Assembly (NCBI GenBank): GCA_016125275.1
Contig: WGMB01000009.1
Span: 1-64,000 of the forward strand
Origin: Acidobacteriota bacterium
Lineage (GTDB): Bacteria; Acidobacteriota; Terriglobia; Bryobacterales; UBA6623
DNA length: 64,000 nucleotides
Reading direction: 5' to 3'
Shown: positions 2,035 through 49,285 of the stretch, in pieces
Position numbering within the stretch: position 1 is the first letter of the stretch
How the letters are laid out: each line of letters opens with the position of its first letter
Translations under genes and position numbers: made by a program
The notes under the pieces: generated by a model
The model's input: only the letters and a program-made list of their open reading frames with translations
The model's database searches: none
What the model was told of the DNA's origin: nothing

Positions 2035-3936
2035 TCATGGCAGCTCCTGATGGCATGCTTCACAGCGCCGAGGGGTTCCCCTGTAGAGGGTCGCTTCCAT
2101 TGCGTCCAACGTTTGCTTTTTGGAATGACACAAGCGGCACGGAACATTCTGGTGTGCACCGTCGAGCGGAAATGCCGAATAGAGTCGATGGTCGAACTGA
2201 GTGGGGTGCCAATCCTTGTTCGTGTGGCACATCGAGCAAGCCTGTCGGGGTTCGCGCAGATCAAACTGCCCGGCATGAACATCCTCGTGGCAGCCGGCGC
2301 ACTGCTGCGGGGCGTCTTTGAAGACGACGCCGTGGACGCTCGGCGAGCCGTCTTGGGAGCGGTGGCAATCGCGGCAAAGCACCGCCCGATGGGCGTCCTC
2401 CAAAGGAAAAGCCGTACGGCTATGGTCGAATTGCCGGGGAGACGCCCATGTCGAGACATCGTGACATAATCCACATTTTTCAGTGGGGCTTTTCGCCCAC
2501 TTATCCGTGAATTGACCTGCGTGAGGATCTTCGTGACAGACCGGGCAATCCAACTCATCCGCCCGAAACGACAGCCTAGCGGGCGAGCCGTCGGATGCGT
2601 CCCTTTGATGGCAGGCGATGCAGGCCACGGCCAAATGCACGCCGGTGAGCTCAAAGCGCGATTGGCGATGTTTGCTCAGCGGGAACGTGGACGGGCGAAA
2701 ACCTTGCACAGTATGACACGTATCACACTGATTCAAATGAGGTTCTCCCGCGAAGTCTCCGTTGTGGGCGTCCTCGTGACAGTCCCTGCAATCGCTTGCA
2801 GAAATCTTGTACACCGTGCCACGCCCTAGGGGCTCATGGCAGGAATCGCAGTCGACGGCGGCGTGCTTGCCGTCCAGCGGGTAGGCGGTCTGCTGATGCA
2901 TCTCGCGTGTGAAGGTTGTCGGCTTGAAGGCGTCGACGGTGTGGCAAATGCCGCACTCCCCGCCGTCGGCGCGGCCAGCGAACTGCTCGCCGTGGGGATT
3001 GTCGCCCTGGTGGCAGTCCAGGCACTGCGTGTGGGGCACGGGGTCCTTGAATCGCGCGCCCGCATGACATTCGGCGCAACTCAGGCCCACGTGCTTGCCC
3101 AACAAAGGAAAGTCCGTACGCCCGTGATCGAAGTTCTGGGAGAGGCTTTTGGGCAGCCAGTTCGAGGTCGAATGGCATCGTTCACACGCAGCCTGGAACG
3201 CCCCGGCGTGAGGGTCCTGGTGACAGTTGCGGCAGGATGTCGACGAGAAGCTGTTCAGCGGAACGAAGCCGTCGATCTCTTTGTGGCAACCCTGGCACTC
3301 CATGGCCGCATGGCGGCCGGTCAGGGGAAAGGCCGTCTGCTGGTGATCGAACTTGGAGATATCGTCGAAGCCCTCGGTGACGTGACAGCGCCGGCAATCC
3401 GAACCGACCTGACCGCGGTGCGGATCGGCATGGCAGATCGCACAGTCCGTCGGCAGCCCCAGAAAGGAGCGGTCCGGGTCCTGCACCTTGGTCTCCCGCA
3501 GCGCATCGAGGTCGACGTAGTCGAGAGAGTGGCACGTCCGGCACTGCACCGCGCCATGCTTGCCGGTGAGCTCGAAGCCGGTTTCCGCGTGGTCGAACGC
3601 CGCCTCGCCCTTGGGCCAGTGCACGAGCTGGAAATCGCGACCCACGTGCTCGCGATGGCAGGCTGCGCAATCGCGCTCCTGCTCCGCCGGCTTGACCACT
3701 CGGCCGTGGTAACCCTGGCCGGCGGCCAGCCGCGAGCCGATCTCCTCGTGGCACTTAGTGCAGACGAAGACCGGCTGCCCCGCCCCGAAGACGTGACAAG
3801 AGTTGCAGCGCAGGGGGCTGTCGAGGTCCCGGTGCGCGTTCGACAGCGGTCCGGGGGAGAGTTGAGCGCGCGCCGACCCCACCGCTCCCACGAGCGCCAA
3901 CCCAACCAGCACGATAGACGGTGAAACGAACTGCAC
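2035..3936 (-). CDS. 23-heme c-type cytochrome with triheme repeats
   Basis: This 633-residue exported protein contains 23 CXXCH motifs, about one heme per 27 residues. The open frame reaches an ATG at 3993, but a GTG at 3936 gives a standard signal peptide (MQFVSPSIVLVG... ending SARA-Q) and mirrors the start of the next cytochrome gene. After three N-terminal hemes the chain runs through about six triheme units. In each, CXXCH is followed by DPHAGQF-like segments, a W/F-rich linker, FDH..T.FPL.G.H, and the next CXXCH. The last two hemes sit at the C-terminus (CRLCH, CEACH). It belongs to the large multiheme cytochrome c / doubled-CXXCH type. The role is presumably long-range electron transfer in the periplasm or to the surface, and the donor and acceptor are not encoded nearby. 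It lies 291 bp upstream of the second cytochrome gene and divergently from the CHAT gene. Confidence 0.9.
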   Translation of the reverse strand: MQFVSPSIVLVGLALVGAVGSARAQLSPGPLSNAHRDLDSPLRCNSCHVFGAGQPVFVCTKCHEEIGSRLAAGQGYHGRVVKPAEQERDCAACHREHVGRDFQLVHWPKGEAAFDHAETGFELTGKHGAVQCRTCHSLDYVDLDALRETKVQDPDRSFLGLPTDCAICHADPHRGQVGSDCRRCHVTEGFDDISKFDHQQTAFPLTGRHAAMECQGCHKEIDGFVPLNSFSSTSCRNCHQDPHAGAFQAACERCHSTSNWLPKSLSQNFDHGRTDFPLLGKHVGLSCAECHAGARFKDPVPHTQCLDCHQGDNPHGEQFAGRADGGECGICHTVDAFKPTTFTREMHQQTAYPLDGKHAAVDCDSCHEPLGRGTVYKISASDCRDCHEDAHNGDFAGEPHLNQCDTCHTVQGFRPSTFPLSKHRQSRFELTGVHLAVACIACHQRDASDGSPARLSFRADELDCPVCHEDPHAGQFTDKWAKSPTEKCGLCHDVSTWASPRQFDHSRTAFPLEDAHRAVLCRDCHRSQDGSPSVHGVVFKDAPQQCAGCHEDVHAGQFDLREPRQACSMCHTNKDWHPTQFDHRLYSAFPLDGAHQNVPCRLCHSKKQTLDAMEATLYRGTPRRCEACHQELP

Positions 3937-4102
3937 TGCAGGCTGACGGCGCTCGAGGTCCGGGCATCGCAGAGCTAGCAATTGGGGCGCCACGTCAGGC
4001 GAGCTGATTCTCGCCCACTATGGTCAAGTCGGCCCACTTGTGCTCGCCCAAGATTCGGAATCGAGCTATTCTGTTCCCGGCTCGTTTCCGAACCATGTCA
4101 AG

Positions 4103-5809
4103 GTGTTGAAGATTTGTCATCTTGCGCGGAGAGTCAGAGGGTCGGGTCCCTGTCGCTCGGCAGCGCTCTTACTCCTTGCGGCCTCGATGATGGCTCCGCG
4201 CGCGACGTACGGGCAAGAACGCGACGCAGTCCAGGTAGAAATTGAACGCCGCCTCATGGAGGTGGAATCCGCGCGGGAGACCGAAGACACGATCGGCCTG
4301 CTCTCCGCCCGGATTGCCCTGGCTCAGGCCTACGGGGCGCTCTCGCTGCTCTCAACGCAGGCCAACGAGCCCGAGCGCGCTCTCGCCGAGGCTCGCCGAT
4401 CTCTGTTCTACGCGCAGCAAGCGCAGGCCCCGGAAGCGCTCTTTCGCTCCCAGTGGAGGATGGCAAAGCTGCAGGCCGCCATCTCCGAAGCAGACCCCCG
4501 CCCGATGTTCCGCTCGGCGGCGGCATCGCTCGGGCTCGCCCGTTCGGCTGCGATCTCCCGCCCCAACAAGGACCCGCTTGCCGAGCCTGAATCGAAGGGA
4601 TTCTATCTGGACTACCTGAACGCTCTCATCGAAGCGGCGCGCGCGAGCTCGGGCGAGGAGGAAGTACGGCGGGCCGAGCTTCGAGCCGTGATCGAATCAT
4701 TTCGGGACTCCGAGCTGACACAGTACTTCGGCGGGATCTGTCGACGAGGGACAAGCTTCGTGTGCTGGCGCGATCTACAGCCCAACGAAGCGTTGGTCTA
4801 CCCCGTGGTCTTCGAAGATCGGATCGAGGCGCTCATCGCAACCGCCGGAGGGCGACTGCAACTCGGGCCCTCTGTCGAGATCCCCCGACCGAAGCTGATC
4901 GAGCGGGTGGACGGCCTGCGCTACTTCTTGGAAAAGAGCACGACCAACCAGTACCGGCCGCTAGCCGCCGAGCTCTACGGACTGCTCATCGCGCCTTGGG
5001 TCGGCCTGCTGCCCGCTTCCGTCGATACTTTGATCTTCGTGCCGGACGACGCGCTGCGCCCCATCCCCATGGCGGCGTTGTTGGCGCCCGACGGCAAGTT
5101 CCTGATCGAGCGGTACGCCGTCGCGATGACGCCGCGCCTGGACGCCACACAAGCGGGCGGCGGCGCAGCCGATCCGCGCGTGCTGGCCATCGGACTGACC
5201 CACCCGGCGGAGTTGCCGCCGTTGCCCTTTGTGGAGCTGGAGCTCGATGCCATCCGCAGCTTCGTCGGCCGCAGGACGATGATTCGCTCCGATGCGAGCG
5301 CGCCGGGGCACCGCCGGTTCCATACGCTGGACGGCGCAACCAAACACCAGCCGTTCTCGGTGCTGCATCTGGCCACGCACGCCGCCTTCGGCGCCGACGC
5401 CCGGACGGAGGTCTTTCTCGATACAGGCGGAAAAGCGCTGACGGTCGACGAATTCGGTCAGGTCCTCGAAGCGGTCTCACAACGCGGAGACCCAATCGAA
5501 TTGCTGGTGCTCAGCGCTTGCGAAACGGCCCGCGGGCCGCTGGACGAACGCTCCGCCCTGGCGGCTCTGGGGCTCGCCGGCGTAGCCGTTCGATCGGGAG
5601 CCAAGAGCGCTCTGGCAACGATGTGGAGCCTCGACGACCGGGCTGCAATGGTCTTCGTTGGGAGCTTCTACCGGGCCTGGCGGTCGGCCGACCGGCCGAG
5701 CAAGGCCCAGGCGGTGCGGCAGGCGCGCCGGGCGCTGATCGAGCACGGCGACGACTACTCCCATCCTTCCTACTGGGCGCCGTTCCTCCTCATCGGCAAC
5801 TGGAGATAG
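4103..5809 (+). CDS. secreted CHAT-domain (caspase-like) protein
   Basis: CHAT domains are caspase/separase-fold peptidases. The expected catalytic dyad is present: His426 in LHLATHAAF and Cys473 in VLSACETA (numbering from the GTG at 4103). The end of the protein, HPSYWAPFLLIGNW, is the usual CHAT terminus. Residues about 40-180 are helical and TPR-like (ALAEARRSLFYAQQA). The frame extends to a GTG at 4040, but starting at 4103 puts a hydrophobic segment (AALLLLAASMM, then ATYGQ) at residues 20-38 as a normal signal peptide, so the protein is probably exported; the start remains uncertain. The stop is 5 bp before the CHASE2-TIR gene, so the two are almost certainly co-transcribed. The dyad suggests an active protease; no substrate can be named. 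CHAT, CHASE2, DUF928 and two-partner secretion genes recur together in cyanobacteria. Confidence 0.88.
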   Translation: MLKICHLARRVRGSGPCRSAALLLLAASMMAPRATYGQERDAVQVEIERRLMEVESARETEDTIGLLSARIALAQAYGALSLLSTQANEPERALAEARRSLFYAQQAQAPEALFRSQWRMAKLQAAISEADPRPMFRSAAASLGLARSAAISRPNKDPLAEPESKGFYLDYLNALIEAARASSGEEEVRRAELRAVIESFRDSELTQYFGGICRRGTSFVCWRDLQPNEALVYPVVFEDRIEALIATAGGRLQLGPSVEIPRPKLIERVDGLRYFLEKSTTNQYRPLAAELYGLLIAPWVGLLPASVDTLIFVPDDALRPIPMAALLAPDGKFLIERYAVAMTPRLDATQAGGGAADPRVLAIGLTHPAELPPLPFVELELDAIRSFVGRRTMIRSDASAPGHRRFHTLDGATKHQPFSVLHLATHAAFGADARTEVFLDTGGKALTVDEFGQVLEAVSQRGDPIELLVLSACETARGPLDERSALAALGLAGVAVRSGAKSALATMWSLDDRAAMVFVGSFYRAWRSADRPSKAQAVRQARRALIEHGDDYSHPSYWAPFLLIGNWR

Positions 5810-5814
5810 AGGAA

Positions 5815-7662
5815 ATGGCGGAAGGGCGCAGCCTCCGAGACTTCGTGTCCAGCCGCTGGACGGAGCTTCAGCGCGGAGTCCTGGGTTACTCGACCTACGA
5901 TCGCCGTCGCTTTTCAAAGTACGCTCGCCGCACGATCGGCAATGTCGCCTTGGTCTCCGCGATCGCCTGGGGGACGGCGGCGGCGCTGCACTACTTTTCG
6001 GTCCTCGAGCCCTTCGAGTTGCTGACCTTCGACACCCTGGTGGAGTGGCGGAACCGGACGGAGCCTCCTCGGGCGTCCGACGTGGCCATCGTCACAGTCG
6101 GCGACGAGGACATGCGGGCGCTCGGCCACGAAACCGACGGGGAGGTCACGGACGACCAACTCGCCTGCGGCCTGCTCACCATTGCCGAACAGTCGCCGAA
6201 CGCGATCGGCGTGGACGTCCTGCGCGGGCCCGAGGTGTCAGAGCTCCTGGGCCGGATCATCACCGCCGAAGCCCTTCCGATCACCGTGGGCCGCCAATGC
6301 ACGCCGCTCGCCAGCGGTTCCATCCCGCCCAGGAAGAGAGGGCCTGTCGGGTTGTCGGACAACCGGCTGGGCTGCGCGGACTTCCCCTTGGATCAGGACG
6401 GTCGCGTGCGTCGGGCCCTACTGGTTTCTCCGGACGAGCAACTCCACAACCAGACCTCTTTCGACCTCATGTTGGCCAAGCGCCATTTGCCCGAGACGCA
6501 GTATGTGGAACCGGTGAGCCGGGACGAGCCTCTGATCCTGGGATCGGCCATCCCGAATCTGCCCGACGCCGGGGGTTTCCAGATCTTCATCGACTACTTG
6601 CCGGTGGCAATTCCCACGATCCCCTTTCGGTGCCTGGCCTCCGGCGCTCCCACGTCCTGCGAGGGCTCGCCGGACCCAAGCTGCCCGGGGCCCGCGGCGC
6701 TCCGGAGAGCTCTGGAGGACAAGGTCGTCCTGATCGGCTATACAGGCTGGGACAAAGAGGATCACTTTCGCGCCATCATCCCACCCGGGCTGGAGGACTG
6801 CCGGTTGACGGCCTTCAACCAGATGCCGGGCGTGTATCTTCATGCGCATGTGGTCGCACAGCTCCTGCGCCTGGGCCAGGGGGGCTCGCGCCCCATCATG
6901 GCGACGGACAGCCTGGGGCGTTGGACCTGGGTCGCGTTGTGGGTTCTGCTGGGTGCCGTTCCGGCGTCGCTCATCTCGAAGCAATCAACCGGGGTCGGCC
7001 TCCAGATTGTGATCCTGCTTTCGCTGATCGGCGCGGTTTGGTACGCCTTCGTGTCGGCGTCCCTGCTGTTGCCGTTCTCGCCGGCGCTGGTCGGATGGCT
7101 GACGGCGGCGGTTCTGGGCCATGCACGCTACGAGCGGCTGCCGGCGCCGGGAGAGCTCAAACTCTTCCTGTCGTACTCCCGGGACGACCGAGAGTTGGCG
7201 TCTCAGATCGAGCAGCACCTGGCGCGCTACTTTCGCGTCTGGAAGGACGAATCGAGCCTGCGCATCGGGACGAAGTGGCAGAAGGAGCTCGTCAAAGCCA
7301 TCAGCGAGTCGGACGTGTTTCTGGCGATTGTGACTCGCTCCTACGTCCGCAAGTGCCAGGAGGACGGCCCCATCCGTTTCGAGCTGCAAACTGCGTCCGC
7401 TGATACCGATGATCGACCGATCATCCCCGTCCGGGCGGAAAGAGTCTCCCTGCCCGCCTCGTTGGAAAAGCTTCAATGGGCGGACTTGACGGAGCCAGAG
7501 GATTCGTCGAAGCGCGCGGGCGCCGCCGACGGCCGGAGCTTCGACTTGGCGGACGTGAGTGCGGAGGAGTTCAAACACGATTCGCCGCGGTTGGCCAGAT
7601 TCCGGCGGGAGCTCTGGGAGATCCAGGAACGGAAAAGGAGACTGGAGGACGTCCAGCCATGA
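5815..7662 (+). CDS. CHASE2 sensor membrane protein with C-terminal TIR domain
   Basis: This 615-residue protein has one membrane helix (about 41-62), an extracytoplasmic CHASE2 domain (about 65-350, with FELLTFDTLVEWR, AIVTVGDEDM and KVVLIGYTG), three closely spaced helices (about 369-387, 392-413, 415-436) and a cytoplasmic TIR domain (about 447-575). The TIR part has LFLSYSRDD, VWKDESSLRIGTKW and a Glu at 523 in the place where TIR NADases carry the catalytic Glu. CHASE2 is usually joined to kinases or cyclases; here the output module is TIR. It may therefore turn an envelope signal into NAD cleavage or into TIR-mediated assembly, which is inference. The ATG at 5815 follows GAGATAGAGGA. 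The frame stays open far upstream, but that part is an out-of-frame shadow of the CHAT gene. The stop overlaps the DUF928 start by 4 bp. Confidence 0.88.
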   Translation: MAEGRSLRDFVSSRWTELQRGVLGYSTYDRRRFSKYARRTIGNVALVSAIAWGTAAALHYFSVLEPFELLTFDTLVEWRNRTEPPRASDVAIVTVGDEDMRALGHETDGEVTDDQLACGLLTIAEQSPNAIGVDVLRGPEVSELLGRIITAEALPITVGRQCTPLASGSIPPRKRGPVGLSDNRLGCADFPLDQDGRVRRALLVSPDEQLHNQTSFDLMLAKRHLPETQYVEPVSRDEPLILGSAIPNLPDAGGFQIFIDYLPVAIPTIPFRCLASGAPTSCEGSPDPSCPGPAALRRALEDKVVLIGYTGWDKEDHFRAIIPPGLEDCRLTAFNQMPGVYLHAHVVAQLLRLGQGGSRPIMATDSLGRWTWVALWVLLGAVPASLISKQSTGVGLQIVILLSLIGAVWYAFVSASLLLPFSPALVGWLTAAVLGHARYERLPAPGELKLFLSYSRDDRELASQIEQHLARYFRVWKDESSLRIGTKWQKELVKAISESDVFLAIVTRSYVRKCQEDGPIRFELQTASADTDDRPIIPVRAERVSLPASLEKLQWADLTEPEDSSKRAGAADGRSFDLADVSAEEFKHDSPRLARFRRELWEIQERKRRLEDVQP

Positions 7663-8441
7663 ACAGGCGGGTCGCGTTCGGGCTGCAGACCGTCGCCGTG
7701 GCGATTGTCCTGGCGCTGTCGGCGGCGGGAGCCGACAAGGACGAGCCGCCGGCCCGGAAACCAGACATGACGGACCTCATGGAGAGGCTCAACGCGATCA
7801 AAGAGCAATACAAACAGAAGGCGTCCCGACCCAAGGAACCGGAGCAGCGTGGGGGCGACGTTTCTCTGCTGGGAAAGGTCCACCGCGAAACCAGGCCGGG
7901 GATCCGGCGCGGCGGACCGGTCGGCCTCTCGCACGTGGCTCTGGCCCCCACGGAAGAAGCGAAGGCCGTCACCGGCGTGAGCCGCCCGACGCTCTACTGG
8001 TACGTCCTCTCTCCGCTTCACCTTCCGGTGAGCTTGACGATTTCCGAACAGGGACGCTCCGAGCCGGTCGTCGACCATGAATTGCCCATTCCATCGAACC
8101 CGGGGTTTCAACAGATCGACTTGGCCCGCTATGGCGTCCGGCTCTCGCCCGGCGTCGAGTATCGCTGGTACGTATCGGTGATGCCGGACAAGAAGTCGCG
8201 CTCCAAGGACATCGTCGCCGGCGCAACGATCCGATTCGTGGACGGCGCCGCGAAGGAGGCTTGGTATGACGAGCTGCATCGGGCCTACCGGCAATACCAA
8301 GCCGATCCCGCCGACGAGGCGGCGAGCCGTGCGCTGGCCCAGCTTCTGATGGAGGCTGGCTGGCCGTTCGCCCAAGCCGAGACGACGTACCGGGCAGAGG
8401 CCGGCGGGGCGGCGGACCGCCCCTCACAGGCGACCCAATGA
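7659..8441 (+). CDS. DUF928 domain secreted protein
   Basis: This 260-residue protein starts with a signal peptide (MNRRVAFGLQTVAVAIVLALS). It has the DUF928 pattern: PTLYWYVLSP, a beta-rich middle, RLSPGVEYRWYVSV, and a helical tail with WYDELHRAY and LAQLLMEAGW. Function is unknown, but DUF928 genes typically sit beside CHAT, CHASE2 and two-partner secretion genes in cyanobacteria, as here. The ATG overlaps the end of the CHASE2-TIR gene (ATGA), implying translational coupling. Its last 18 bp overlap the 3' end of the convergent TpsB gene. A role as periplasmic accessory to the exported CHAT protein or to secretion is inference from context. Confidence 0.82.
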   Translation: MNRRVAFGLQTVAVAIVLALSAAGADKDEPPARKPDMTDLMERLNAIKEQYKQKASRPKEPEQRGGDVSLLGKVHRETRPGIRRGGPVGLSHVALAPTEEAKAVTGVSRPTLYWYVLSPLHLPVSLTISEQGRSEPVVDHELPIPSNPGFQQIDLARYGVRLSPGVEYRWYVSVMPDKKSRSKDIVAGATIRFVDGAAKEAWYDELHRAYRQYQADPADEAASRALAQLLMEAGWPFAQAETTYRAEAGGAADRPSQATQ

Positions 8442-10142
8442 GAGCTGGAAGTGCAGGCCGGCGTCCTGTAGCGAGCCGCTGTTGCCGGTCGTAATCCTGT
8501 GGAACGGCAAGCCCCAGTAGATTTCGACGTCGGGCTGAAGGGGCGATTCGCCGAGACGCGGTCCGGTCCAGCGGACGCCGACGCCCGCGGAGGCGAGCGT
8601 CTTCTCGCCCGAGCGGCTGTTCCCCCGGTTGTTCCACCCATGGCCGAAATCGACGAAGACCGCTCCCTGCAACTGTCCGAACGGACGGGCGCCCCGGAAC
8701 AGCGGAATCCTCGACTCGACCGAAGCGGTCAGGGCGTTGTCGCGGACGAGCTGATTCTGCCGGTAGCCGCGCACGCTGTAGCGGCCTCCGACGGGAAGCT
8801 GCTCGAGCGGCAGCAGCGCGCTGCCCGCAAGTTGGGCGTCTGATTTGAGAATCAACTGCATTTCCCGGACTCGGTCGAATCGTCGGGCCACCAGCGCCTG
8901 GCCGAGCCAAGCGACGAACCGTCCGTCCGGCGGCTTGACTCCGCCGCCGACCACCGCGCCGGGGGGCAGAACGTCTCGATGGATGGTCGGGTTCAACAGA
9001 TTCAGCCCGATGCTGAGGCGGGAGCTGACGTTGGCGACCTGCTTGGCCGTGCGGCGGGTCCAGTCTTGGTGGAGACGCAGGGCCGTGACCACCGATCGAC
9101 CGTTGGTCGCGCCGGCCGAGAACGAAAAAGGCTGGCCGAACAGGTACGACTGGTTGATCGAGTGCTCCAGCGTCGCGCCGAGGCTGGCCCGCTCGTTGAC
9201 GAGTCGCCCTTCGGAGCCGCCGGGCCGGTTTCTGAGTAGAATCGGCGCCGAGAAACCGAGCGAAAAGATTTCGGACTTGCTCGAGATGTCGAGCGACTGG
9301 AACGGCTCCTCGACGACGACGAAGTCGTTCTTGCGGTAGCCCAGCGCCACGGTCGCGTCGCGGGCGGTGACCGGCAGCGAGTAGGACGCCGAGATCTGCG
9401 GATTGAGCCCGGCGGAACGGCCATAGCCGACCCGCAAGGCGTCGCCCCTTCCCGTCAGACTCTCATGCGCGAAGTTTCCGGCGGCGCGCACCGGCCCGAC
9501 GGTTGGCGACTGGTAGTTGTTGAAGGTGATCCCCGCGCTCAGCGGGACCCGTTCTTCCACCGCCACGTCGAGCACGCTCGCGCCTCCGCCATAGGGTCGA
9601 CCCTGCTCGTCGACGGCCCGCAGCTTTGCGTCGAAGCGGCGGACGCGATCGTCCAGATGCAGTTGCTGTAGCCGATCGCGCAGCCTGTAGGAATTGAGAA
9701 GCGTTCCCGCCCCACTCGCAATACGGTCGCGGTAGAAGCTCTTGCGAAACCAGCGGTTGCCCTGGATGTTGATCGTCGGGGCGGCTCCCTCGATGATGCG
9801 CATCGTGATCCTGCCTTCCACGACGGGTTGGTCGTCGATGACCGCGCCGGAGCTCACGTAGCCGCTGTCGACGTACTTCTGGGTCAGCTCGAGGCGGAGC
9901 TGCTCGAGCCGCTCGCCGGTGAACGCCTCCGACTCACGGGTGTATCGGTCTGCGATGTCCTGCAACCCGCCGCAGAAGGCCGGCTCACGCCCACACCCCA
10001 CGACGCGGATCTCGTGGAGGCTGACTTGGTCCAGATGCCGGACCAAGTCGTCCGCGCCGGAGCGTTGCGCCTGCATGGGCTGCGGGCCGCCCACCAAGGG
10101 GAGCAATCCGGCGAGAACCACGCTCCAGGGTCGCGGAAACAT
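8424..10142 (-). CDS. TpsB outer-membrane transporter (ShlB/FhaC/HecB family)
   Basis: This 572-residue Omp85-superfamily translocator of two-partner secretion has a signal peptide (to MQAQ), then POTRA-like segments (LHEIRVVGCG..., GRITMRIIEGAAPTINIQGNRWF) and a 16-strand-type barrel. The diagnostic family motif VRGY is present in GGRYSVRGYRQNQL, near residue 460. Its partner is the TpsA gene just upstream (13 bp spacing, same strand). The natural role is to recognise the TPS domain of the partner and export it through the outer membrane. The 3' end overlaps the DUF928 gene by 18 bp, tail to tail. The barrel is beta-rich to the last residue, so the gene looks complete. Confidence 0.92.
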   Translation of the reverse strand: MFPRPWSVVLAGLLPLVGGPQPMQAQRSGADDLVRHLDQVSLHEIRVVGCGREPAFCGGLQDIADRYTRESEAFTGERLEQLRLELTQKYVDSGYVSSGAVIDDQPVVEGRITMRIIEGAAPTINIQGNRWFRKSFYRDRIASGAGTLLNSYRLRDRLQQLHLDDRVRRFDAKLRAVDEQGRPYGGGASVLDVAVEERVPLSAGITFNNYQSPTVGPVRAAGNFAHESLTGRGDALRVGYGRSAGLNPQISASYSLPVTARDATVALGYRKNDFVVVEEPFQSLDISSKSEIFSLGFSAPILLRNRPGGSEGRLVNERASLGATLEHSINQSYLFGQPFSFSAGATNGRSVVTALRLHQDWTRRTAKQVANVSSRLSIGLNLLNPTIHRDVLPPGAVVGGGVKPPDGRFVAWLGQALVARRFDRVREMQLILKSDAQLAGSALLPLEQLPVGGRYSVRGYRQNQLVRDNALTASVESRIPLFRGARPFGQLQGAVFVDFGHGWNNRGNSRSGEKTLASAGVGVRWTGPRLGESPLQPDVEIYWGLPFHRITTGNSGSLQDAGLHFQLSLGRL

Positions 10143-10155
10143 CTCGCCTCACCGG

Positions 10156-13100
10156 CTATTGCGGACAACTCCCGTTGTTCGACGGCGCAGTCGACCGGCC
10201 TCCGCGTTGGCCCGGCGGCGGAGACGGCAGCCCCACCTGTGTGTAGGAACTGGCAAGCCGCCTCGACGACCCTGGGCCGCAGGGATCGGAGAGCAGGTCC
10301 GTGCTCCTGAGGAAGTAGTCGGATAAGGGATTGATGAATCCGCTCAGCTCGGCGACGGGAGAGCGGATGTCGATGACGCCGGGCGTGCTCAGGCGAGAGC
10401 TGGCGTCCAGAATGGAGCGGGGAGAGACCAGAAACGCCGTACGCGCCTCCAGCGTGATGTCTCCTCCGTCGCCCTCGATCGCTGAAGTCACTACGCTGGT
10501 CCGCTCCAACACGGCAAAGGCGGGGGCGCCGTCGCCAAACATGCTGATGTCGCCGGCGTTGCCGGCTCCGTTGCGAACGTTCGTCGCCACCACACTGTCC
10601 ACCAAGTGCGCCAGCGACCCCACGCGGAAGGTGATCTGCCCGCCGAGGCCACCGTTGGAGCCGGCGATGACCGTCCCCTCGCGGATCAGCAACAGATCGT
10701 CCGCGATCAATGAGATCGACCCAGCCTGGCCGGCATCCGCCTCGACCGACACGCCGCCCCCGTCGAGAACCTGGATGCGACTCGCGTGAACCACGATCGA
10801 GCCGGCGGCGCCGCTGTCCGGCTCTTTCCCCTCGCTCTTGCTCGACAGCCTGGAGCCGTCGGGGCTGGAAAGGGCGAGTCCCTCCGCGCCCGAGATTCGT
10901 ACGGTTCCCGTCGCTGTCAGTTGCACCGACCCCGCCTGGCCCCGGCCCGCGGTCGATGTCGTGATCTGCGCGCCATCAAGCAGCGTGGCGTCGCCCGCCT
11001 CGATCGTGATCGCGCCGCCGTCGCCGCGGCCTACAGTGTCCGCGCGGATCGCACCCGCATCCGAAATCGTCAGCGAGTCCGCCCGCAACACAACGCGACC
11101 GGCCGCTCCGTCGCCCAGGGAGTCGCTATAGACCCCGCTCGCGATCGTCTCTCCGGCGCGGGTCCGGCCGACGCCTTCGATCCGGACGGCGCCGGTCGAG
11201 GAAATGGTTACCGTCCCGCCGGCGCCGCGGCCGAGAGTGGCGCCTTCCACCCGGCTCCCTCCCCGGATCGTCAAGTTGTCGACGAGGATCGTGATCTCGC
11301 CCGAGGCGCCGTCGCTCTGCTCGCTCGAGCCGGTGCGCAACCCTGCCGCCGCACGAACCACGGCGCCGCCGGCAAGCTCCATGTCCGGCGTGGAAATGAC
11401 GATCGACCCCGCCGAACCCGAGCCGTTCGTATCGGACTGAATCCCATCCGGCGCGTCGACGCAGGCCGCCCCTTCGCACAGCGCCCCAAAGTTGCGCGGA
11501 CTCACCAAGCCGCCCTCGACTCTCACCGATTCGCCGGCGTTGATGGTGATGTCTCCCGCATCCCCCGACCCCAGCGTCGAGGTGGCGATGAGGGTCGGCG
11601 GATCGGTCGGCAGCCGGGGACCGTCTTCTGTATCCGCCTTGCCGAGCATCTCCAGGCGGGCTACGTCGATTTCGAGGTTGCCGGCGGAACCCGTGGCCAC
11701 GCCGTCGACGTCCGGCCCGGAGCGCAGGTTGATCGCACTGCCCCCGGCCAGCCGCAGATCCGTCGCCTCGATTCGTACGTCGCCGCCGGGGCGCGATCCC
11801 AGCGTTTGCGCCAGGATCAGAGCGCTCTCTCCGACCAGCTCGATGGAATCGGCCACGCGGATCGTGACGCCGCCCCCAGCCAATCCACCATCGAGCGGGT
11901 AACCATCGTCCGCCGCCAAGGCGCTGTTGGAGACGACCTGGACCGTGGCCCCGTCGGCCACCTTCAGTGAATTCGCGTCGATGGCGATGGAGCCCGCCTT
12001 TGCGGAGCCGCCTCGGACGGTGTCATTGACGATGCCCGTCACGTCGCCGGTCAAGGTGACGGCCGCGCCGGGAGCGTCGATCGTGATGCGGCCCCCGTCC
12101 CCGTCCCCTCTGGCCGTGCCGTAGATTCTGGCCCCTTCCGAGAGGTCGAGGCGGCTGCCGGCTTGGACCGAGATGTCCCCGAGACCGCGACACGTTTCAC
12201 AGGACACCACCCGCACCTGGGCGCCGCCTTTGAGCTCGATCCTGCCCGCCGCAAGATGGATGTCGCCGCCTGCCGCCTCCGCGGCGGAGTCCGACTGGAT
12301 CAATCCGCCGTCCAGCTCAATCGAGTCCCCCGCGGCGAGATCGACCATCCCGCCGCCTCGCGGCCCCTGCGCGTTGGCTGAAACAACCGCCTCACCCTCG
12401 AGGACGAAGCGCCCCGCCCGCACGTAGATCTGTCCGGAGCCGGGCGCCTCGATGCGAGCTGCGTCGACGGTGACGAGCGCCTCCGGGTTGTCGCTCGCCG
12501 CGGCGGGCGGCCCGGAGAAGGCGACCTCGCCGGACCCGGACTGTGCGGTCAGGCGGATGCTTCCGTTGGGGGCGAACAGCCCGGCGCCGGCTCCGCTGAC
12601 CCGGATTGCACGCCCGGCCAGCGCCAGCGACTGGGAGTCACGAACCGCGAGCCGGCTGCCGCTGACCTCGATCGTTCCTCCTTCGCGCTGGTCGAAGAAC
12701 CCAAAGGCCTCGGGCGGCGTCTCCGCGAACGTGCTGGTTCGGCTGGGGTCGGCGAAGAACTGCCCGTTCTCCTTGCCGAACGAGACGGAATCGGCGGCGC
12801 CGGCGTAGAAGGATCCGCCGATGTCCAGCCTGGCGTTCGACTGGAAGAGGATGCCATGGGGGTTGATCAAGAAGAGGTTGACGCCCTCGATGTCCGACCG
12901 GATTGTGCCGTCGATCTGCGACTGCTGCGACCCGGTAATCCGGGCCAGGATGTTCTCAATCCCCTGGGGACCGAGGAAGTTTGCCGTCTGCCCCGTGCTG
13001 AGATTGAACACCGAGAAGCTGTGAAATAGGTTCGGCCCGTGGATCTCCCCCGCTTCCGGCCCGATCGAATAGGTGGCGGAGGCCGCATCGAGGCTCACCG

Positions 13101-13197
13101 TCGGAACGTCGCCGATCGAGCCGTCCGGGATGATCTGAGCGTGGAGTCCGCAGCAGAACGCCGTGAAGAGCAAGCCTCGAACCACTGGGCGCCCCAT
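10156..13197 (-). CDS. TpsA exoprotein with filamentous-haemagglutinin secretion domain
   Basis: This 1013-residue secreted protein has a signal peptide (to LHAQ), then a TPS/haemagglutinin activity domain with GIENILARITG, SQIDGTIRS and NLFLINPHGILFQ. The rest is a long right-handed beta-helix: many short strands with G/A-rich turns and IT/IDA steps (GDISVQAGS, GGRITIDAP, GGAITIEAG). The C-terminus has SDPCGPGSSRRLASSYTQVG followed by a Pro/Gly-rich tail, resembling the C-terminal signature of cyanobacterial haemagglutinin-like TpsA proteins. It should be exported by the TpsB encoded 13 bp downstream and act at the cell surface as an adhesin or scaffold; what it binds is unknown. It is the first gene of the minus-strand pair. 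At 1013 residues it is short for a classical FHA-type adhesin. Confidence 0.92.
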   Translation of the reverse strand: MGRPVVRGLLFTAFCCGLHAQIIPDGSIGDVPTVSLDAASATYSIGPEAGEIHGPNLFHSFSVFNLSTGQTANFLGPQGIENILARITGSQQSQIDGTIRSDIEGVNLFLINPHGILFQSNARLDIGGSFYAGAADSVSFGKENGQFFADPSRTSTFAETPPEAFGFFDQREGGTIEVSGSRLAVRDSQSLALAGRAIRVSGAGAGLFAPNGSIRLTAQSGSGEVAFSGPPAAASDNPEALVTVDAARIEAPGSGQIYVRAGRFVLEGEAVVSANAQGPRGGGMVDLAAGDSIELDGGLIQSDSAAEAAGGDIHLAAGRIELKGGAQVRVVSCETCRGLGDISVQAGSRLDLSEGARIYGTARGDGDGGRITIDAPGAAVTLTGDVTGIVNDTVRGGSAKAGSIAIDANSLKVADGATVQVVSNSALAADDGYPLDGGLAGGGVTIRVADSIELVGESALILAQTLGSRPGGDVRIEATDLRLAGGSAINLRSGPDVDGVATGSAGNLEIDVARLEMLGKADTEDGPRLPTDPPTLIATSTLGSGDAGDITINAGESVRVEGGLVSPRNFGALCEGAACVDAPDGIQSDTNGSGSAGSIVISTPDMELAGGAVVRAAAGLRTGSSEQSDGASGEITILVDNLTIRGGSRVEGATLGRGAGGTVTISSTGAVRIEGVGRTRAGETIASGVYSDSLGDGAAGRVVLRADSLTISDAGAIRADTVGRGDGGAITIEAGDATLLDGAQITTSTAGRGQAGSVQLTATGTVRISGAEGLALSSPDGSRLSSKSEGKEPDSGAAGSIVVHASRIQVLDGGGVSVEADAGQAGSISLIADDLLLIREGTVIAGSNGGLGGQITFRVGSLAHLVDSVVATNVRNGAGNAGDISMFGDGAPAFAVLERTSVVTSAIEGDGGDITLEARTAFLVSPRSILDASSRLSTPGVIDIRSPVAELSGFINPLSDYFLRSTDLLSDPCGPGSSRRLASSYTQVGLPSPPPGQRGGRSTAPSNNGSCPQ

Positions 13198-13310: not shown

Positions 13311-13387
13311 TGGCGCGCTCGGGAGGATTCGAACCCCCGACCTTCTGGTCCGTAGCCAGACGCTCTATCCAGCTGAGCTACGAGCGC
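13311..13387 (-). tRNA. tRNA-Arg (anticodon ACG)
   Basis: This 77-nt cloverleaf on the minus strand has acceptor stem GCGCTCG/CGAGCGC, discriminator G and an encoded CCA. The D arm is GCTC/GAGC. The anticodon stem TCTGG/CCAGA holds loop CTACGGA, and the T arm has TTCGAAT. Anticodon ACG reads CGN arginine codons after A34-to-inosine editing. No duplicate of its 3' end and no integrase were seen nearby, so there is no sign that it is an occupied attachment site. Confidence 0.97.
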
Positions 13388-13473
13388 GCAAGGACATTTC
13401 CGAGAATAGCGTGCTTTGCGTGGGGAGTCAACGCGGGGGCGGGCTGCGCCACTTTCCTGCGACGATTGTCTCG

Positions 13474-41525: not shown

Positions 41526-44500
41526 TCAAGGCAACCTGGTCTTGAACAGGATGTCGGAGCCCACCAGCCCGTTCTGGTCGCGTGTGAGCACGAAAGTCCA
41601 GCGTCGATACGGCGCATATTCCAGCCGAAACGTCTGCTGCTGCGCCGACGAAAGGTCGTAAGTATAGATCAGCGTGACCTGGTCCGTGATCTGCTGCTCG
41701 GTGGAGATGCGCGCCGCCGGGTTGGCCTCCGCGCCGCCGGCTTGCGGGTCCACCTTCAGGCGGCTCACCCCGAAGAAGCGTTGCAGCCCCGGCGAGACCG
41801 GTCGCTCCACGGCCTGGTTGAAAACCGTATTCGCGCCGGTCTGAAACAGCGATTGCTGCTGAATGCGCTGGCGCGAAGCCGTCACCGGGTCCGTCGTGGG
41901 AGAACGGCCCACGGCCACCAGGTTCACCAGATCCGCGAACGAGACCGGCGGATCGGAGCGGTAGCTGACGTTGAGCCGCCGAGCCGGCCCGGACAGGATG
42001 AGCCCAATGTCGATGTCGCGGATCCGTGTCTCGAGCTCGAAGTCCAGCACCGGCTCGATCCGGAAGGGATTGACGAAGTCGATCTCGCCTCGGTTGATGC
42101 GGTAGCCGGAGCCGTTGAAGTTGATGCGCCCGCGCGAGACGTTCATGCGCCCCAGCAGGGACGGGCTGTTGAGGCCGCCCACCACGCGCAGGTCGATCTC
42201 GGCCTCGATGTCACGCACCAGCGAGGTCTCGACCATCAGGTCGGCCGCCGAAACCACCTGGATGTTGAGCTGCATGTTGCGCAGCAGCCCGCTGGTGGAC
42301 GGCGTGGTGGTGGGCTCGCGCAGCGAGCCGATCAGAGCGCCCAGCGAGACCTCCGGGTTGGTGGCCGCCCGCAGCACCGTCACCTGGCCCGACAGCAGGC
42401 TCTGCTCACGGTTCCCCGAAAGCGCCAAGCGGCCGTCGATCACCGAGCTGACGCTCGACGGATAGCGGATGCGCACCCGCTCCACGTCGGCTCGCAAACG
42501 GTACTCGGCGTTGTCCCGGTCGAACTGGCTCAACCCCGTCAACACCACACGCCCGCCGCCGGTCAGGCCGCTGAGCTCGCGGATGCGAACCTGCCGGCCT
42601 TCGAACTCCACGTCGCCCTCGACGCCGGTCAGCCCGTTGGCAAAGCCCTCCGAGCGCAGAGAGCCGTCCCGGATGCGCAGATTGCCGCTGACGTCGGGAG
42701 AGCTGCGGTCGCCGGTCACGGAGACCTTGACCGTCGAGCGGCCGGCCGCCTGCAAGTCGCCGTCCAGTGAGCCCAACGCCGCCAAGTTGAACTCCCCTTC
42801 GATCTGGAGATCCAGCGCGCGCGTGCCGTCGAAGGCGATGTCGCCGTCGACTTCGATGTCGGTGCCGTCACCCTGTAGCCGCATGTGTTCGAGCTGCAGG
42901 CGGCGCCCCTCGAAGACCCAGCGCATTGGGAAGGGGTTATAGAGCTGATAGCGAAGGTCCGAGCCCACCAGGGAGCCGACGTTGAAGCTCACCTGTTCGA
43001 AGGCTCCTTCGGCGCGGAAGCTGTCCGGTAGGTTCCGTAGGTCGCCGGTCAGGCTCAGCTTGCCCGCCACTGCGCCGCGCAGGTCATCCAGCGGCAAGTC
43101 GCTGAGCTCGGCCAGCACGCCCGCGTCGAGGTCGCTGATGGTCGCGTCCCCGTGGAAGGCGCCGCTCGGGATCTCGACAACAGCGTCGCCACTGAAGCTG
43201 CCTCCCAGCGGAGTTCCGGTCCAATCCAGCCGCACCGCGTCGCCGCGGCTCGAGAGCCCTCCCTCGAGCGCGCCGAGCTCACGCCCCTGCCACACCAAGT
43301 CGGCCAGGCGCCAGGAACCGCTGGTTTCCAGCCGCTCCACGCCGTTATGATCCGCGGCCAGAACACCGGACGCCCGGACATCGAAGGTCGCCTGGCCGGT
43401 GGGAGGATTCTCCCTGGACCGCAGACGTTCGAGCTGCTCGATGCGCCAGTCGTGGCCGCCCAGGTCGAGCTCGAAACGGCGGCCCGCCAGCTCGTAGCGG
43501 CCTTGCCCCCGCAGCGATCCGGCCGGCGTCTGTAACTCCAACTCCTCAATGGCGGCGACGCCGTCGCGCAGAGCGCCGCGCACGGCCAGCCGCTGGAACG
43601 GCTGGTCGGCCAGCGAACCGTCCGTCACGGCCACATCCACGCTCACCCGCGCGGCTTCGAGCGGCCCGTCCAGCGTCGCCGAGCCGCTCCACAGCCCGGT
43701 CAGCGGCGCGGAGACCTTCGCCGTCTCCAAAGCCTTGGCCACGTCGAGCGCTGTGGCGTCGAGCCGGCCTGCCAACGGCAGCTCGCTCCAGCCCCAACCC
43801 TTCTCCGGCGGGAACGTCCCTTGCAGCGCCAGCTTCGCCTGGCCGCGCTCATCGCGCAGGATCGCGTCGTCGATCTCGAAGCCGGCCGAGTCCAGCTTGA
43901 AGCGCGCTTCCAAGCCCTGCCACGGGTAGCCCAGCAGCTCCAGCTCGCCGGACTCGAGAGCGCCATTCAGCGCCACCGCCAGCGGCTTGCGGCCCAAATT
44001 GATCAGCAGACCGCCCTCGAAGCGCACCGGTCCCAGGGCCCGGAACGGCGCAGTCTCCAGATCCAAGCCGAACAGGTCCAGAATGCTCAGCAGGTCGTCC
44101 GGCGCGGAGGCGTCGAAGAGCAGATCCGTGGCCGTCTCGCCGGCCTCGTCCATGCGTCCGGTGGCCTGCACGCGGGTCACGGCGGTGCGTACGTCCAGAG
44201 CCTCGATGTTGATCTGCTGGGTGGCGCCGTCCAGGTGGGCCCGCAGCGAGCCGTCGAGCGGACGCAGCGAGCCGGCCGCAAGGCCGTCGAGCGTGATATC
44301 CGCGGACGCCTGCAGGTCCTCCGGCGATGAGCCCGTCGCCTCGATATGGGCCCGCACGGCCGAACCCCAAGGGATCGCCTTGGTCGAGCCCGCCGCGGCC
44401 AACAGCGAGCGCAGCCGGAAGCCCTCGGCGTCGCCGGCGATCTCGAACCGCCGGCCGGGCTCGAACGGGTCGGTGAGCTGCGCGCTGCCGTGAAATGCGC

Positions 44501-45539
44501 CGCCGAAGGCCTCCAGCGCCAAATCGCTAAGCTCGATGCGGTCCATCGATCCGCGATAGCCCGTCGACAGCGTCGCCTCCGAAAGCTTCACCGCCCCAGC
44601 CCGAGCGCCCAGCTCAGAGGCCCTCGCCCGGCCTTCGTAGGTCAGCTCATTCCCATCGCCGTTCCACGCCAGCCGCCCGTCCGCCTCCAACCGGCCCGAC
44701 AGCGTCCAGTCCGGCGGCAGCCAGGCGGCGGCCGTCTCCAGCGGCCCGGAGATCTCGTAGTCGAGTGTCGCCGAAGGGGGGTCCGCCAAAGTCGCCTCGC
44801 CGGAGGCCGACAGCGCGGCCTCGCCGAGCTTCAGTCGCGCCTCCGACACCGTCAAGCGCTCTCCGCACAGCGAAGCGCGCGCGTCGGCCGAGTCCACGGC
44901 GCCGGACCGGCCCCGCAGCTCCCACGCTACGCGGCCCGCCGCCAGAGTCGCCTCATGGCAGCCGTCGACCGCGCTGCGGGTGAGGGCGTCCACGTCTTCG
45001 GCCTCCACCGAGGCGTCGAAGATCTTGCCGTTCCACGAGACCCGGGCGTGACGCAGGTCCACCCGCCGCGCGCCGACGGCCAATGAGCGCGCCAGAGCGC
45101 TCTCGATGCGCGGCAGCGTCAGTCCTTGCTCGTCGGTCGCCAGCCGGATCTGCGGCGACTCCACGACGATCGAACGCAAGAACAGCGGTCCGCGCCACAC
45201 GGACTCCCAACCCAAGCCCAGCCGGATCAGCGGCGCTTCGAGGAGCGGCTGGCCGTCGAGACGCGGTTCCGGCGGGCTGCGAAAGTCGTGCAGGTCCACC
45301 CGCAAGGCGGCGCTGTCGAGCTCGATCGAAGCGATCGTCACGCCCTCGCCCAGCACACGCTCGGTCTCGGCAAGCACCTTGGCCCGCAACCACCCCGCGA
45401 ACCAGTCGCTGCGCAGCGCCCAGTCGGCGCCGACGAACAGCAGCGCGCCCGCCGCCAGCAGCCCGGCCAAGGCATAGGCGGCCCAGCGCAGGGCGCGGCC
45501 GCCGGGCAGAGCTTTCCAGCGATCGCCCAGCCGGCTCAC
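41526..45539 (-). CDS. tamB: TamB-family translocation/assembly protein
   Basis: This 1337-residue protein has an N-terminal membrane anchor (AAYALAGLLAAGALLFVGADW) and a very long beta-rich AsmA/TamB body of repeated short strands. The C-terminal DUF490 domain ends with TLIYTYDLSSAQQQTFRLEYAPYRRWTFVLTRDQNGLVGSDILFKTRL. TamB spans the periplasm, works with Omp85 proteins and is implicated in protein insertion and lipid movement to the outer membrane. The start overlaps the SurA-N gene by 4 bp, and that gene overlaps bamA by 4 bp, so the three are one operon. Length is in the normal range for TamB (about 1250-1450). Confidence 0.9.
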   Translation of the reverse strand: MSRLGDRWKALPGGRALRWAAYALAGLLAAGALLFVGADWALRSDWFAGWLRAKVLAETERVLGEGVTIASIELDSAALRVDLHDFRSPPEPRLDGQPLLEAPLIRLGLGWESVWRGPLFLRSIVVESPQIRLATDEQGLTLPRIESALARSLAVGARRVDLRHARVSWNGKIFDASVEAEDVDALTRSAVDGCHEATLAAGRVAWELRGRSGAVDSADARASLCGERLTVSEARLKLGEAALSASGEATLADPPSATLDYEISGPLETAAAWLPPDWTLSGRLEADGRLAWNGDGNELTYEGRARASELGARAGAVKLSEATLSTGYRGSMDRIELSDLALEAFGGAFHGSAQLTDPFEPGRRFEIAGDAEGFRLRSLLAAAGSTKAIPWGSAVRAHIEATGSSPEDLQASADITLDGLAAGSLRPLDGSLRAHLDGATQQINIEALDVRTAVTRVQATGRMDEAGETATDLLFDASAPDDLLSILDLFGLDLETAPFRALGPVRFEGGLLINLGRKPLAVALNGALESGELELLGYPWQGLEARFKLDSAGFEIDDAILRDERGQAKLALQGTFPPEKGWGWSELPLAGRLDATALDVAKALETAKVSAPLTGLWSGSATLDGPLEAARVSVDVAVTDGSLADQPFQRLAVRGALRDGVAAIEELELQTPAGSLRGQGRYELAGRRFELDLGGHDWRIEQLERLRSRENPPTGQATFDVRASGVLAADHNGVERLETSGSWRLADLVWQGRELGALEGGLSSRGDAVRLDWTGTPLGGSFSGDAVVEIPSGAFHGDATISDLDAGVLAELSDLPLDDLRGAVAGKLSLTGDLRNLPDSFRAEGAFEQVSFNVGSLVGSDLRYQLYNPFPMRWVFEGRRLQLEHMRLQGDGTDIEVDGDIAFDGTRALDLQIEGEFNLAALGSLDGDLQAAGRSTVKVSVTGDRSSPDVSGNLRIRDGSLRSEGFANGLTGVEGDVEFEGRQVRIRELSGLTGGGRVVLTGLSQFDRDNAEYRLRADVERVRIRYPSSVSSVIDGRLALSGNREQSLLSGQVTVLRAATNPEVSLGALIGSLREPTTTPSTSGLLRNMQLNIQVVSAADLMVETSLVRDIEAEIDLRVVGGLNSPSLLGRMNVSRGRINFNGSGYRINRGEIDFVNPFRIEPVLDFELETRIRDIDIGLILSGPARRLNVSYRSDPPVSFADLVNLVAVGRSPTTDPVTASRQRIQQQSLFQTGANTVFNQAVERPVSPGLQRFFGVSRLKVDPQAGGAEANPAARISTEQQITDQVTLIYTYDLSSAQQQTFRLEYAPYRRWTFVLTRDQNGLVGSDILFKTRLP

Positions 45540-49158: not shown

Positions 49159-49176
49159 AAGCTCCAGACGGCCTCC

Positions 49177-49182
49177 ATTATA
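49177..49182 (-). promoter_or_regulatory. -10 box of the bamA operon
   Basis: A perfect TATAAT on the minus strand, 18 nt before the GTG at 49158. Transcription would begin roughly 10-12 nt before the start, giving a short leader that contains GGAG. Confidence 0.55.
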
Positions 49183-49285
49183 AGATGCCCCGGCGGGCCC
49201 CCATAGGATGCCCGTGCGGCGCCGAGCGTTCCGGCGGCATGTGGCTGCTAGCATCGGAGCAGGGCCGCGACGGGCTCTTTTCAGC

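Follow-up and report, generated by a model that had tools for sequence, protein, structure and literature searches.

Organization of the locus

Here we analyse a five-gene locus in a 64,000-nt stretch of DNA (hereafter the window) from contig WGMB01000009.1 of an Acidobacteriota bacterium (assembly GCA_016125275.1). The locus comprises the following features:

4103 (GTG)–5809, + strand: putative CHAT peptidase, 568 aa (Pfam CHAT, E = 5e-50, 171 bits)
5815–7662, + strand: predicted CHASE2-TIR sensor, 615 aa (Pfam CHASE2 and TIR_2; hydrophobicity)
5980–6957 (aa 56–381), + strand: CHASE2 domain (Pfam CHASE2, E = 1e-35)
7165–7500 (aa 451–562), + strand: TIR domain (Pfam TIR_2, E = 5e-22)
7659–8441, + strand: DUF928 protein, 260 aa (Pfam DUF928, E = 4e-16)
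8424–10142, − strand: TpsB, ShlB-FhaC-type outer-membrane transporter, 572 aa (Pfam ShlB, E = 8e-24; POTRA_2)
10156–13197, − strand: TpsA exoprotein, 1013 aa (Pfam TPS, E = 1e-33; NCBIfam TIGR01901)

The CHAT, CHASE2-TIR and DUF928 genes form a compact run on the + strand (4103–8441), with a gap of 5 bp between the first two and an overlap of 4 bp between the last two. DUF928 converges on TpsB, the two genes overlapping by 18 bp at their 3' ends, and TpsB and TpsA, both on the − strand, are spaced 13 bp apart. Pfam matches of all five families were well over cut-off, and the domains, coordinates and gene spacings given in an earlier note on this DNA hold when checked against Pfam and the coordinates. 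The whole genome (7.55 Mb) contains one DUF928 gene and two CHASE2 genes. Because these families are scarce in the genome, and are adjacent in other Acidobacteriota and in cyanobacteria, their grouping here is not due to chance. A tRNA-Arg gene (13311–13387) adjoins TpsA. A genomic island at this tRNA was considered and rejected: the window contains no direct repeat of the tRNA, and GC content is ordinary. The cytochrome and glycosyltransferase flanks were unmatched, and the surroundings of the prolyl oligopeptidase gene had no synteny, in the relatives searched; an empty site is thus not definable.

Features of the encoded proteins

The CHASE2-TIR protein is composed of an N-terminal transmembrane helix, the CHASE2 domain, three further transmembrane helices and a C-terminal TIR domain (Pfam and hydrophobicity), an order predicted to place CHASE2 in the periplasm and TIR in the cytoplasm. 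The conserved catalytic glutamate on which the earlier note's suggestion of NAD cleavage turned is present: Glu523 (GAG, 7381–7383) occupies the conserved Glu column in three profile alignments built without the window sequence. In alignments that included the window sequence, the stretch around E523 was displaced by a few residues. The TIR domain was modelled alone, since a joint CHASE2 and TIR alignment put TIR rows on CHASE2. In the resulting AF2 model, E523 lies in helix 84–96, and the comparison with NADase TIRs that the earlier note had proposed placed the model closest to those of SARM1 (Foldseek E = 2.5e-5) and SPARTA (VIA Z 13); the TIR domains of MyD88 and TLRs are also among its fold matches. 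The conserved glutamate and the fold suggest a TIR of the NAD-cleaving kind.

The CHAT domain, which is caspase/HetF-like, occupies the C-terminal half of its protein, and residues 1–37 resemble a signal peptide (the N terminus was judged by inspection). Catalytic His426 (codon 5378–5380) and Cys473 (codon 5519–5521) fall in columns that are invariant among the aligned CHATs (111/111 and 110/110, respectively). With this dyad kept, the protein is a putative peptidase; a sequence search of the protein against the PDB left it unmatched. CHAT domains are frequent effectors of bacterial conflict systems.

We know of no function for DUF928. The protein consists of a signal peptide, an Ig/FN3-like β-sandwich (residues ~90–195) and helices, in an AF2 model with pLDDT >80 for most of residues 90–235. 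The top Foldseek match of this model is MtxA (TM-score 0.28, r.m.s.d. 6.2), with a VIA Z of 8.0 over 145 residues that is on par with the FN3/SKICH rows; homology to MtxA was undetected by profile search, and the likeness is at the level of the fold alone. MtxA is a periplasmic Ig and TPR protein whose gene is followed by one for a CHASE2-adenylate cyclase (PMC4439547). Profiles likewise detected no homology between DUF928 and the G274 protein that occupies the DUF928 position.

In TpsB, a ShlB domain and one POTRA_2 were detected, and its closest relatives are cyanobacterial. TpsA bears a TPS secretion domain (FHA N-terminal, NPXG) but no CHAT domain.

Related clusters in cyanobacteria

The cyanobacterial census comprised 80 CHASE2 loci, in which the CHASE2 output is CHAT in 56, TIR in 8 and another domain in 16. 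DUF928 lies immediately 3' of CHASE2 in 59 of the 74 loci in which this could be tested. Among the 32 loci longer than 20 kb, DUF928 is present in 29 and a separate CHAT in 21, and 20 have TPS/ShlB genes no further than 10 kb from CHASE2. A plasmid of Nostoc sp. UHCC 0302 (NZ_CP151101) carries CHAT-CHASE2, DUF928, TpsA, TpsB and CHAT in that order. Calothrix NIES-4105 has a 4-bp CHASE2/DUF928 overlap with convergent CHAT, TPS and ShlB, and the same gene set occurs in Pseudanabaena and Nostoc ATCC 53789; cluster versions are frequently on plasmids. CHASE2, DUF928, CHAT and TPS thus make up a widespread cyanobacterial cluster with a swappable CHASE2 output, confirming the association of cyanobacterial type that the earlier note had described.

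At least four loci (L081, L082, L092 and L152) have the order TIR-CHASE2, DUF928, TPS, and two others (L003 and L079) have TIR-CHASE2 and DUF928. In L081 (Lyngbya HA4199-MV5), L082 and L092, TPS and CHAT are fused in a single open reading frame; the hosts of this TIR-CHASE2, DUF928, TPS-CHAT arrangement are Lyngbya, Stenomitos and a Leptolyngbyaceae MAG. Each of the eight census loci with a TIR output has it N-terminal of CHASE2, as does L003, and C-terminal outputs (HK) are present in L005 and L074. The earlier note had taken a TIR output to be undescribed in this setting. Our search of the papers covered found no account of CHASE2 with a TIR output, but the cyanobacterial loci with TIR-CHASE2, DUF928 and TPS show that the arrangement itself is not unique. 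The literature search also returned next to nothing on CHAT with two-partner secretion or on DUF928, which a single paper of those covered mentions. CHASE2 is named merely as one of the variable C-terminal domains in one paper (PMC8195603), and another contains one WD40/CHASE2/DUF928 neighbourhood, from a cyanobacterium named NOSP7 (PMC5587647).

Distribution in Acidobacteriota and origin of the fusion

Across 396 acidobacterial genomes, seven DUF928 genes score above cut-off, and five of them lie directly downstream of CHASE2. TpsB occurs in only two of these genomes, and in the second, with the order CHAT, TpsB, kinase-CHASE2, secreted-looking protein, TpsA, it is again beside CHASE2 and CHAT. 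Class-mates (loci L045–L048) carry CHASE2-cyclase, DUF928 and TPR-CHAT without TPS. The CHASE2-TIR gene of the window is absent from every other genome searched, among 396 of the phylum and 100 of the order (99 besides this one), and a scan of genome contigs with the CHASE2-TIR single protein found no relatives. The synteny that the earlier note proposed to score exists as a gene set kept across phyla and not as a CHASE2-TIR gene shared within the order.

A nine-sequence CHASE2 alignment proved too diverse; the cyanobacterial CHASE2 alignment was usable. The tree assigns the window CHASE2 to its cyanobacterial side (SH-aLRT 99), whereas the TIR fits acidobacterial TIR profiles (81.9 bits) better than cyanobacterial ones (49.8 bits). 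A single origin of the window and cyanobacterial TIR-CHASE2 proteins is borderline (p-AU 0.048), with a long window branch, and independent recruitment is consequently favoured, not proven. Attachment of the TIR to the C terminus of a CHASE2 of cyanobacterial type was probably an event separate from the N-terminal fusions seen in cyanobacteria.

A working model and its alternatives

The gene set recurs in two phyla with a sensor output that varies between CHAT, TIR, Ser/Thr kinase, histidine kinase and cyclase. The envelope-signalling system envisaged in the earlier note is, we infer, the most likely reading. As a full working model, which we regard as evenly balanced between right and wrong, the locus would be the acidobacterial version of a modular, mainly cyanobacterial, cell-surface signalling cluster. 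TpsB would export TpsA onto the cell surface, and the exported CHAT would have TpsA or neighbouring proteins as its targets, at the outer membrane or beyond it. This action is proposed by analogy, as TpsA of the window lacks a CHAT domain: the three cyanobacterial TPS-CHAT fusions point to the TPS-exported adhesin as the probable target of the secreted CHAT. DUF928 would be a periplasmic Ig-like partner that presents CHASE2 with a ligand or with information on the state of the surface. A change in CHASE2 conformation, relayed through the four transmembrane helices, would cluster the TIR domains, which would then cleave NAD+ to yield a nucleotide signal or cell arrest. Such cleavage would make CHASE2-TIR, we propose, a Toll-like-receptor-like protein with an enzymatic output. 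The TPS pair, on the opposite strand, could be separately regulated. Tentatively, and as a possibility that falls short of the probable, we take the analogy with TLRs further: periplasmic CHASE2-DUF928 may read the state of the adhesin, possibly its cleavage by CHAT, and switch a membrane-tethered TIR NADase, an output that the two phyla would each have taken up separately into a single cassette with exchangeable outputs.

The same genes could instead encode an anti-phage or conflict system, in which CHASE2 senses envelope damage, TIR depletes NAD+ so that the infected cell aborts, and CHAT is a second suicide effector. TIR and CHAT are common effectors of such systems (for TIR, see PMC8195603), the cyanobacterial versions are often plasmid-borne and the distribution is patchy. 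However, CHAT here bears an export signal (by inspection) and would therefore not act on cytoplasmic targets, the cyclase and histidine kinase outputs are regulatory rather than lethal, and many cyanobacterial loci contain surface exoproteins. Matches to known defence families are also weak: PADLOC returned only weak TIR matches and left DUF928 unmatched, and the window TIR scored 27.5 bits against ThcB4 of Thoeris, far under the NCBIfam cut-off of 220. We consider this alternative unlikely.

Some TIR domains are scaffolds, and CHASE2-TIR might be a signalling adaptor whose non-enzymatic TIR recruits another TIR protein by homotypic contact. The folds of scaffold and enzyme TIRs overlap, as the MyD88 and TLR entries in the match lists illustrate, and the genome has another TIR-like place (C14), but conservation of the glutamate and the rank of NADase TIRs as best matches make an adaptor improbable. 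It is very unlikely that an acidobacterial CHAT/CHASE2-TIR/DUF928 operon faces the TPS pair by accident. The opposite strands and the TPS-free loci of the class-mates would fit such unrelated neighbours; the frequency of TPS/ShlB near CHASE2 in the long cyanobacterial loci, the three TPS-CHAT fusions and the rarity of acidobacterial TpsB, found both times beside CHASE2 and CHAT, argue against it.

Bacterial TIR enzymes are familiar mainly as effectors of immunity in the cytosol. The presence of a TIR on an envelope sensor, where a kinase, cyclase or CHAT can take its place, suggests that NAD+-derived signals serve ordinary surface signalling too. The signalling cassette also offers DUF928 and exported CHAT proteases a testable role, for which the TPS-CHAT fusions and the resemblance to MtxA provide concrete handles.

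Comparison with known systems

The window locus shares with the cyanobacterial clusters the five families, DUF928 right after CHASE2, an exported CHAT and TpsA with TpsB, and with L081, L082, L092 and L152 also the TIR output. It differs in its acidobacterial host, its convergent TPS pair and the C-terminal position of the TIR, the usual but non-defining order in the clusters being an N-terminal output (CHAT or TIR). Its CHAT and TpsA are two proteins, whereas L081, L082 and L092 have the fusion. In L045–L048, DUF928 also directly follows CHASE2, and three of the four have a convergent CHAT protein; their output is an adenylate/guanylate cyclase, however, the TPS pair is missing, the CHATs carry long TPR arrays and the sequences are distant. 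Another acidobacterium (G172/L075) likewise has TIR fused to CHASE2, but with the TIR N-terminal and a FecR partner in place of DUF928; neither CHAT nor TPS was seen on its 10-kb contig. The MtxA/CHASE2-adenylate cyclase operon of magnetotactic bacteria (PMC4439547) sets an Ig-like and helical (TPR) periplasmic protein beside CHASE2, with a cyclase output and in a magnetotaxis setting.

The TIR NADases SARM1, SPARTA and BtTir have the TIR fold and catalytic Glu in common with the window TIR, and animal Toll-like receptors combine an extracytoplasmic sensor, a membrane segment and a cytoplasmic TIR, as the window CHASE2-TIR does. The sensor here is CHASE2 and neither leucine-rich repeats nor a nucleic-acid-guided complex, and homology to these proteins is claimed for the TIR alone.

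Architecture of the locus

The window spans the opening 64 kb of contig C13. Across the whole 7.55-Mb genome there are a single DUF928 gene and two genes for CHASE2 proteins. The five-gene block reported in the earlier note was confirmed in its coordinates, spacing and Pfam domains, all far above cut-off:

4103-5809, + strand, CHAT gene
5815-7662, + strand, CHASE2-TIR gene
7659-8441, + strand, DUF928 gene
8424-10142, - strand, TpsB gene
10156-13197, - strand, TpsA gene

CHAT and CHASE2-TIR are 5 bp apart, and CHASE2-TIR and DUF928 overlap by 4 bp; TpsB and TpsA are 13 bp apart, the 18-bp overlap being that of the convergent 3' ends of DUF928 and TpsB. By eye, CHAT, DUF928, TpsB and TpsA have signal-peptide-like N-termini. 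In CHASE2-TIR, an N-terminal segment (residues ~43-62) is weakly hydrophobic, under the threshold of the hydrophobicity scan. The CHASE2 domain (residues 56-381) is periplasmic by the usual topology and leads into a hydrophobic stretch (residues 370-435) with room for three helices; the TIR domain that follows would, assuming the same topology, be cytoplasmic.

Adjoining the cluster, a 652-aa multihaem cytochrome (2035-3993, - strand) has many CxxCH motifs (cytochrome c7/c3 families) and was unmatched in 11 relatives at E ≤ 1e-20. A tRNA-Arg (acg) gene (13311-13387, - strand) lies directly upstream of TpsA. It is crossed in antisense by a long + strand reading frame from 13039 whose translation there looks spurious ('IRTPDLLVRSQTLYPAELRA'), so that the true start of this glycosyltransferase is probably near 13471. 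Further along, 41526-49287 (- strand) encodes an outer-membrane assembly pair: a TamB-like protein (1337 aa) and a 1032-aa BamA-type Omp85 protein with POTRA repeats.

The cyanobacterial cassette

Against plasmids, the CHASE2-TIR and DUF928 proteins matched only cyanobacterial sequences and TpsB and CHAT mostly cyanobacterial ones, several of these matches falling within shared loci. The gene order is CHAT-CHASE2 > DUF928 > TpsA > TpsB > CHAT in Nostoc UHCC 0302, TpsA > CHAT-CHASE2 > DUF928 in Nostoc ATCC 53789 and ShlB > CHASE2-HK > TpsA > CHAT in Pseudanabaena ABRG5-3; Calothrix NIES-4105 has CHASE2 and DUF928 overlapping by 4 bp, a convergent CHAT, then TPS and ShlB. Scanning genomes with an alignment of cyanobacterial CHASE2 domains gave at least 521 confirmed relatives, of which the best 80, all with cyanobacterial titles, were kept; these were picked by similarity to one CHASE2 domain, not by neighbours, and are not a random sample, with several loci per genus. 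In these best 80, in-house profiles assigned a CHAT output to 56, TIR to 8 and other outputs to 16, including a Ser/Thr kinase (L099). DUF928 lies immediately downstream of CHASE2 in 59 of the 74 census loci where over 1 kb of sequence remains. The 32 loci above 20 kb include 29 with DUF928, 21 with a separate CHAT and 20 with TPS or ShlB.

The remark that a TIR output had not been seen in this setting is true of the literature but not of the databases: TIR-CHASE2, DUF928 and TPS occur together in Lyngbya HA4199-MV5 (L081), Stenomitos frigidus (L082), a Leptolyngbyaceae MAG (L092) and L152. L079 and a Kovacikia plasmid (L003) carry TIR-CHASE2 and DUF928. Particular to the window are its acidobacterial host and the C-terminal position of TIR. 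In three of these loci, a single reading frame of 2398-2915 codons joins TPS at the N-terminal end to CHAT at the C-terminal end:

L081, 12416-19969, TPS-CHAT giant reading frame
L082, 12542-19738, TPS-CHAT giant reading frame
L092, 8617-17364, TPS-CHAT giant reading frame

These frames are direct evidence of a function shared by CHAT and two-partner secretion, and the fusion suggests that CHAT can be exported via the TPS route. CHASE2 proteins of L003, L080, L100 and L152 have three TIR-like domains, and one from a cyanobacterial MAG (L133, 2383-7251) has five in tandem.

Acidobacterial relatives

In 396 genomes drawn from the phylum, DUF928 had any match in nine and a match above cut-off in seven. 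Five of the seven lie directly downstream of CHASE2 on the same strand (G000, G359, G265, G073 and G121); the other two are C-terminal domains of a zf-HC2 anti-sigma-like protein adjoining a sigma-70-like gene, a possible surface-signalling sigma/anti-sigma variant:

L049 (genome G386), 7000-11254, zf-HC2 anti-sigma-like/DUF928-like fusion and sigma-70-like gene, also adjoined by a CHAT protein
L050 (genome G281), 388-2457, zf-HC2 anti-sigma-like/DUF928-like fusion and sigma-70-like gene

By profile, outputs at ~95 acidobacterial CHASE2 loci were 51 cyclases, 24 histidine kinases, 7 protein kinases, 10 unassigned and 1 TIR, that of the window itself; the tally leaves out a few CHASE2 domains under the in-house profile threshold, among them that of G172, a second acidobacterial TIR-CHASE2, in which the TIR is N-terminal and FecR lies alongside. 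TpsB relatives were found in two of the 396 genomes. The second, G274 (assembly listed with 7% contamination), has a kinase-output version of the cassette (L221, 4007-17401), ordered CHAT > TpsB > kinase-CHASE2 > secreted-looking protein > TpsA > caspase C14-DUF4384. A search of the order to which the window belongs (100 genomes, including 17 others of its own family) found separate TIR domains only and no further CHASE2-TIR. The conserved unit is thus the cassette and not the CHASE2-TIR gene.

Protein domains

The closest matches to the AF2 model of the TIR domain (mean pLDDT 71) are SARM1, at a Foldseek E of 2.5e-5, and SPARTA TIRs (VIA Z 13.1, r.m.s.d. 3.1, 114 residues). E523 aligns with the conserved family glutamate in each of three profiles built without the window (all, acidobacterial-only and cyanobacterial-only), whereas in alignments including the window a short insertion displaces the surrounding stretch by a few residues; its assignment to the catalytic position is therefore well but not perfectly supported. 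The domain scores 81.9 bits against the acidobacterial profile versus 49.8 against the cyanobacterial one. The CHASE2 tree puts the window's protein on the side of the cyanobacteria (SH-aLRT 99), where it sits basally on a long branch; constraining it to group with the TIR-CHASE2s of cyanobacteria lowers the likelihood by 26.8 log units (p-AU 0.048). Leaving aside the direction and date of any transfer, we read CHASE2-TIR as a probable combination of a cyanobacterial-type sensor and a separately acquired TIR.

His426 and Cys473 of CHAT occupy columns conserved in every aligned CHAT. In the DUF928 model, confident over most of residues 90-235, an Ig/FN3-like sandwich leads into helices. Foldseek ranks the C-terminal domain of MtxA first among its matches (E = 3e-4), with a TM-score of just 0.28. 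VIA aligns the two over 145 residues (Z 8.0), a score that FN3 and SKICH domains also reach; sequence profiles gave no link between DUF928 and MtxA. MtxA is a periplasmic Ig+TPR protein whose gene is followed by that of a CHASE2-adenylate cyclase (PMC4439547). Where the cassette would have DUF928, G274 encodes a protein with no profile similarity to DUF928 that appears by eye to have an Ig-type segment and then helices. On the basis of these three proteins, we propose that CHASE2 sensors may often pair with an Ig-like periplasmic partner.

Implications

Domains, gene order, conserved residues, cassette recurrence, output interchange and TPS-CHAT fusion are established. In the mechanism that we propose, TpsA would be exported, CHAT would work on it or its surroundings, DUF928 would act as co-receptor, and the TIR domains would cluster and cleave NAD+. 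As cyclases, kinases and CHAT interchange with TIR in the same place, TIR appears to be a signalling output rather than primarily a suicide weapon, and its action may still cause cell arrest. The interpretation in the earlier note is supported in part: the domains, the cyanobacterial-type cassette and the conserved TIR glutamate agree with it; the uniqueness of the TIR output does not hold, given the cyanobacterial TIR loci. Judging by the open papers covered, the cassette is hardly described; it is present in the databases, and the window holds an acidobacterial variant of it.
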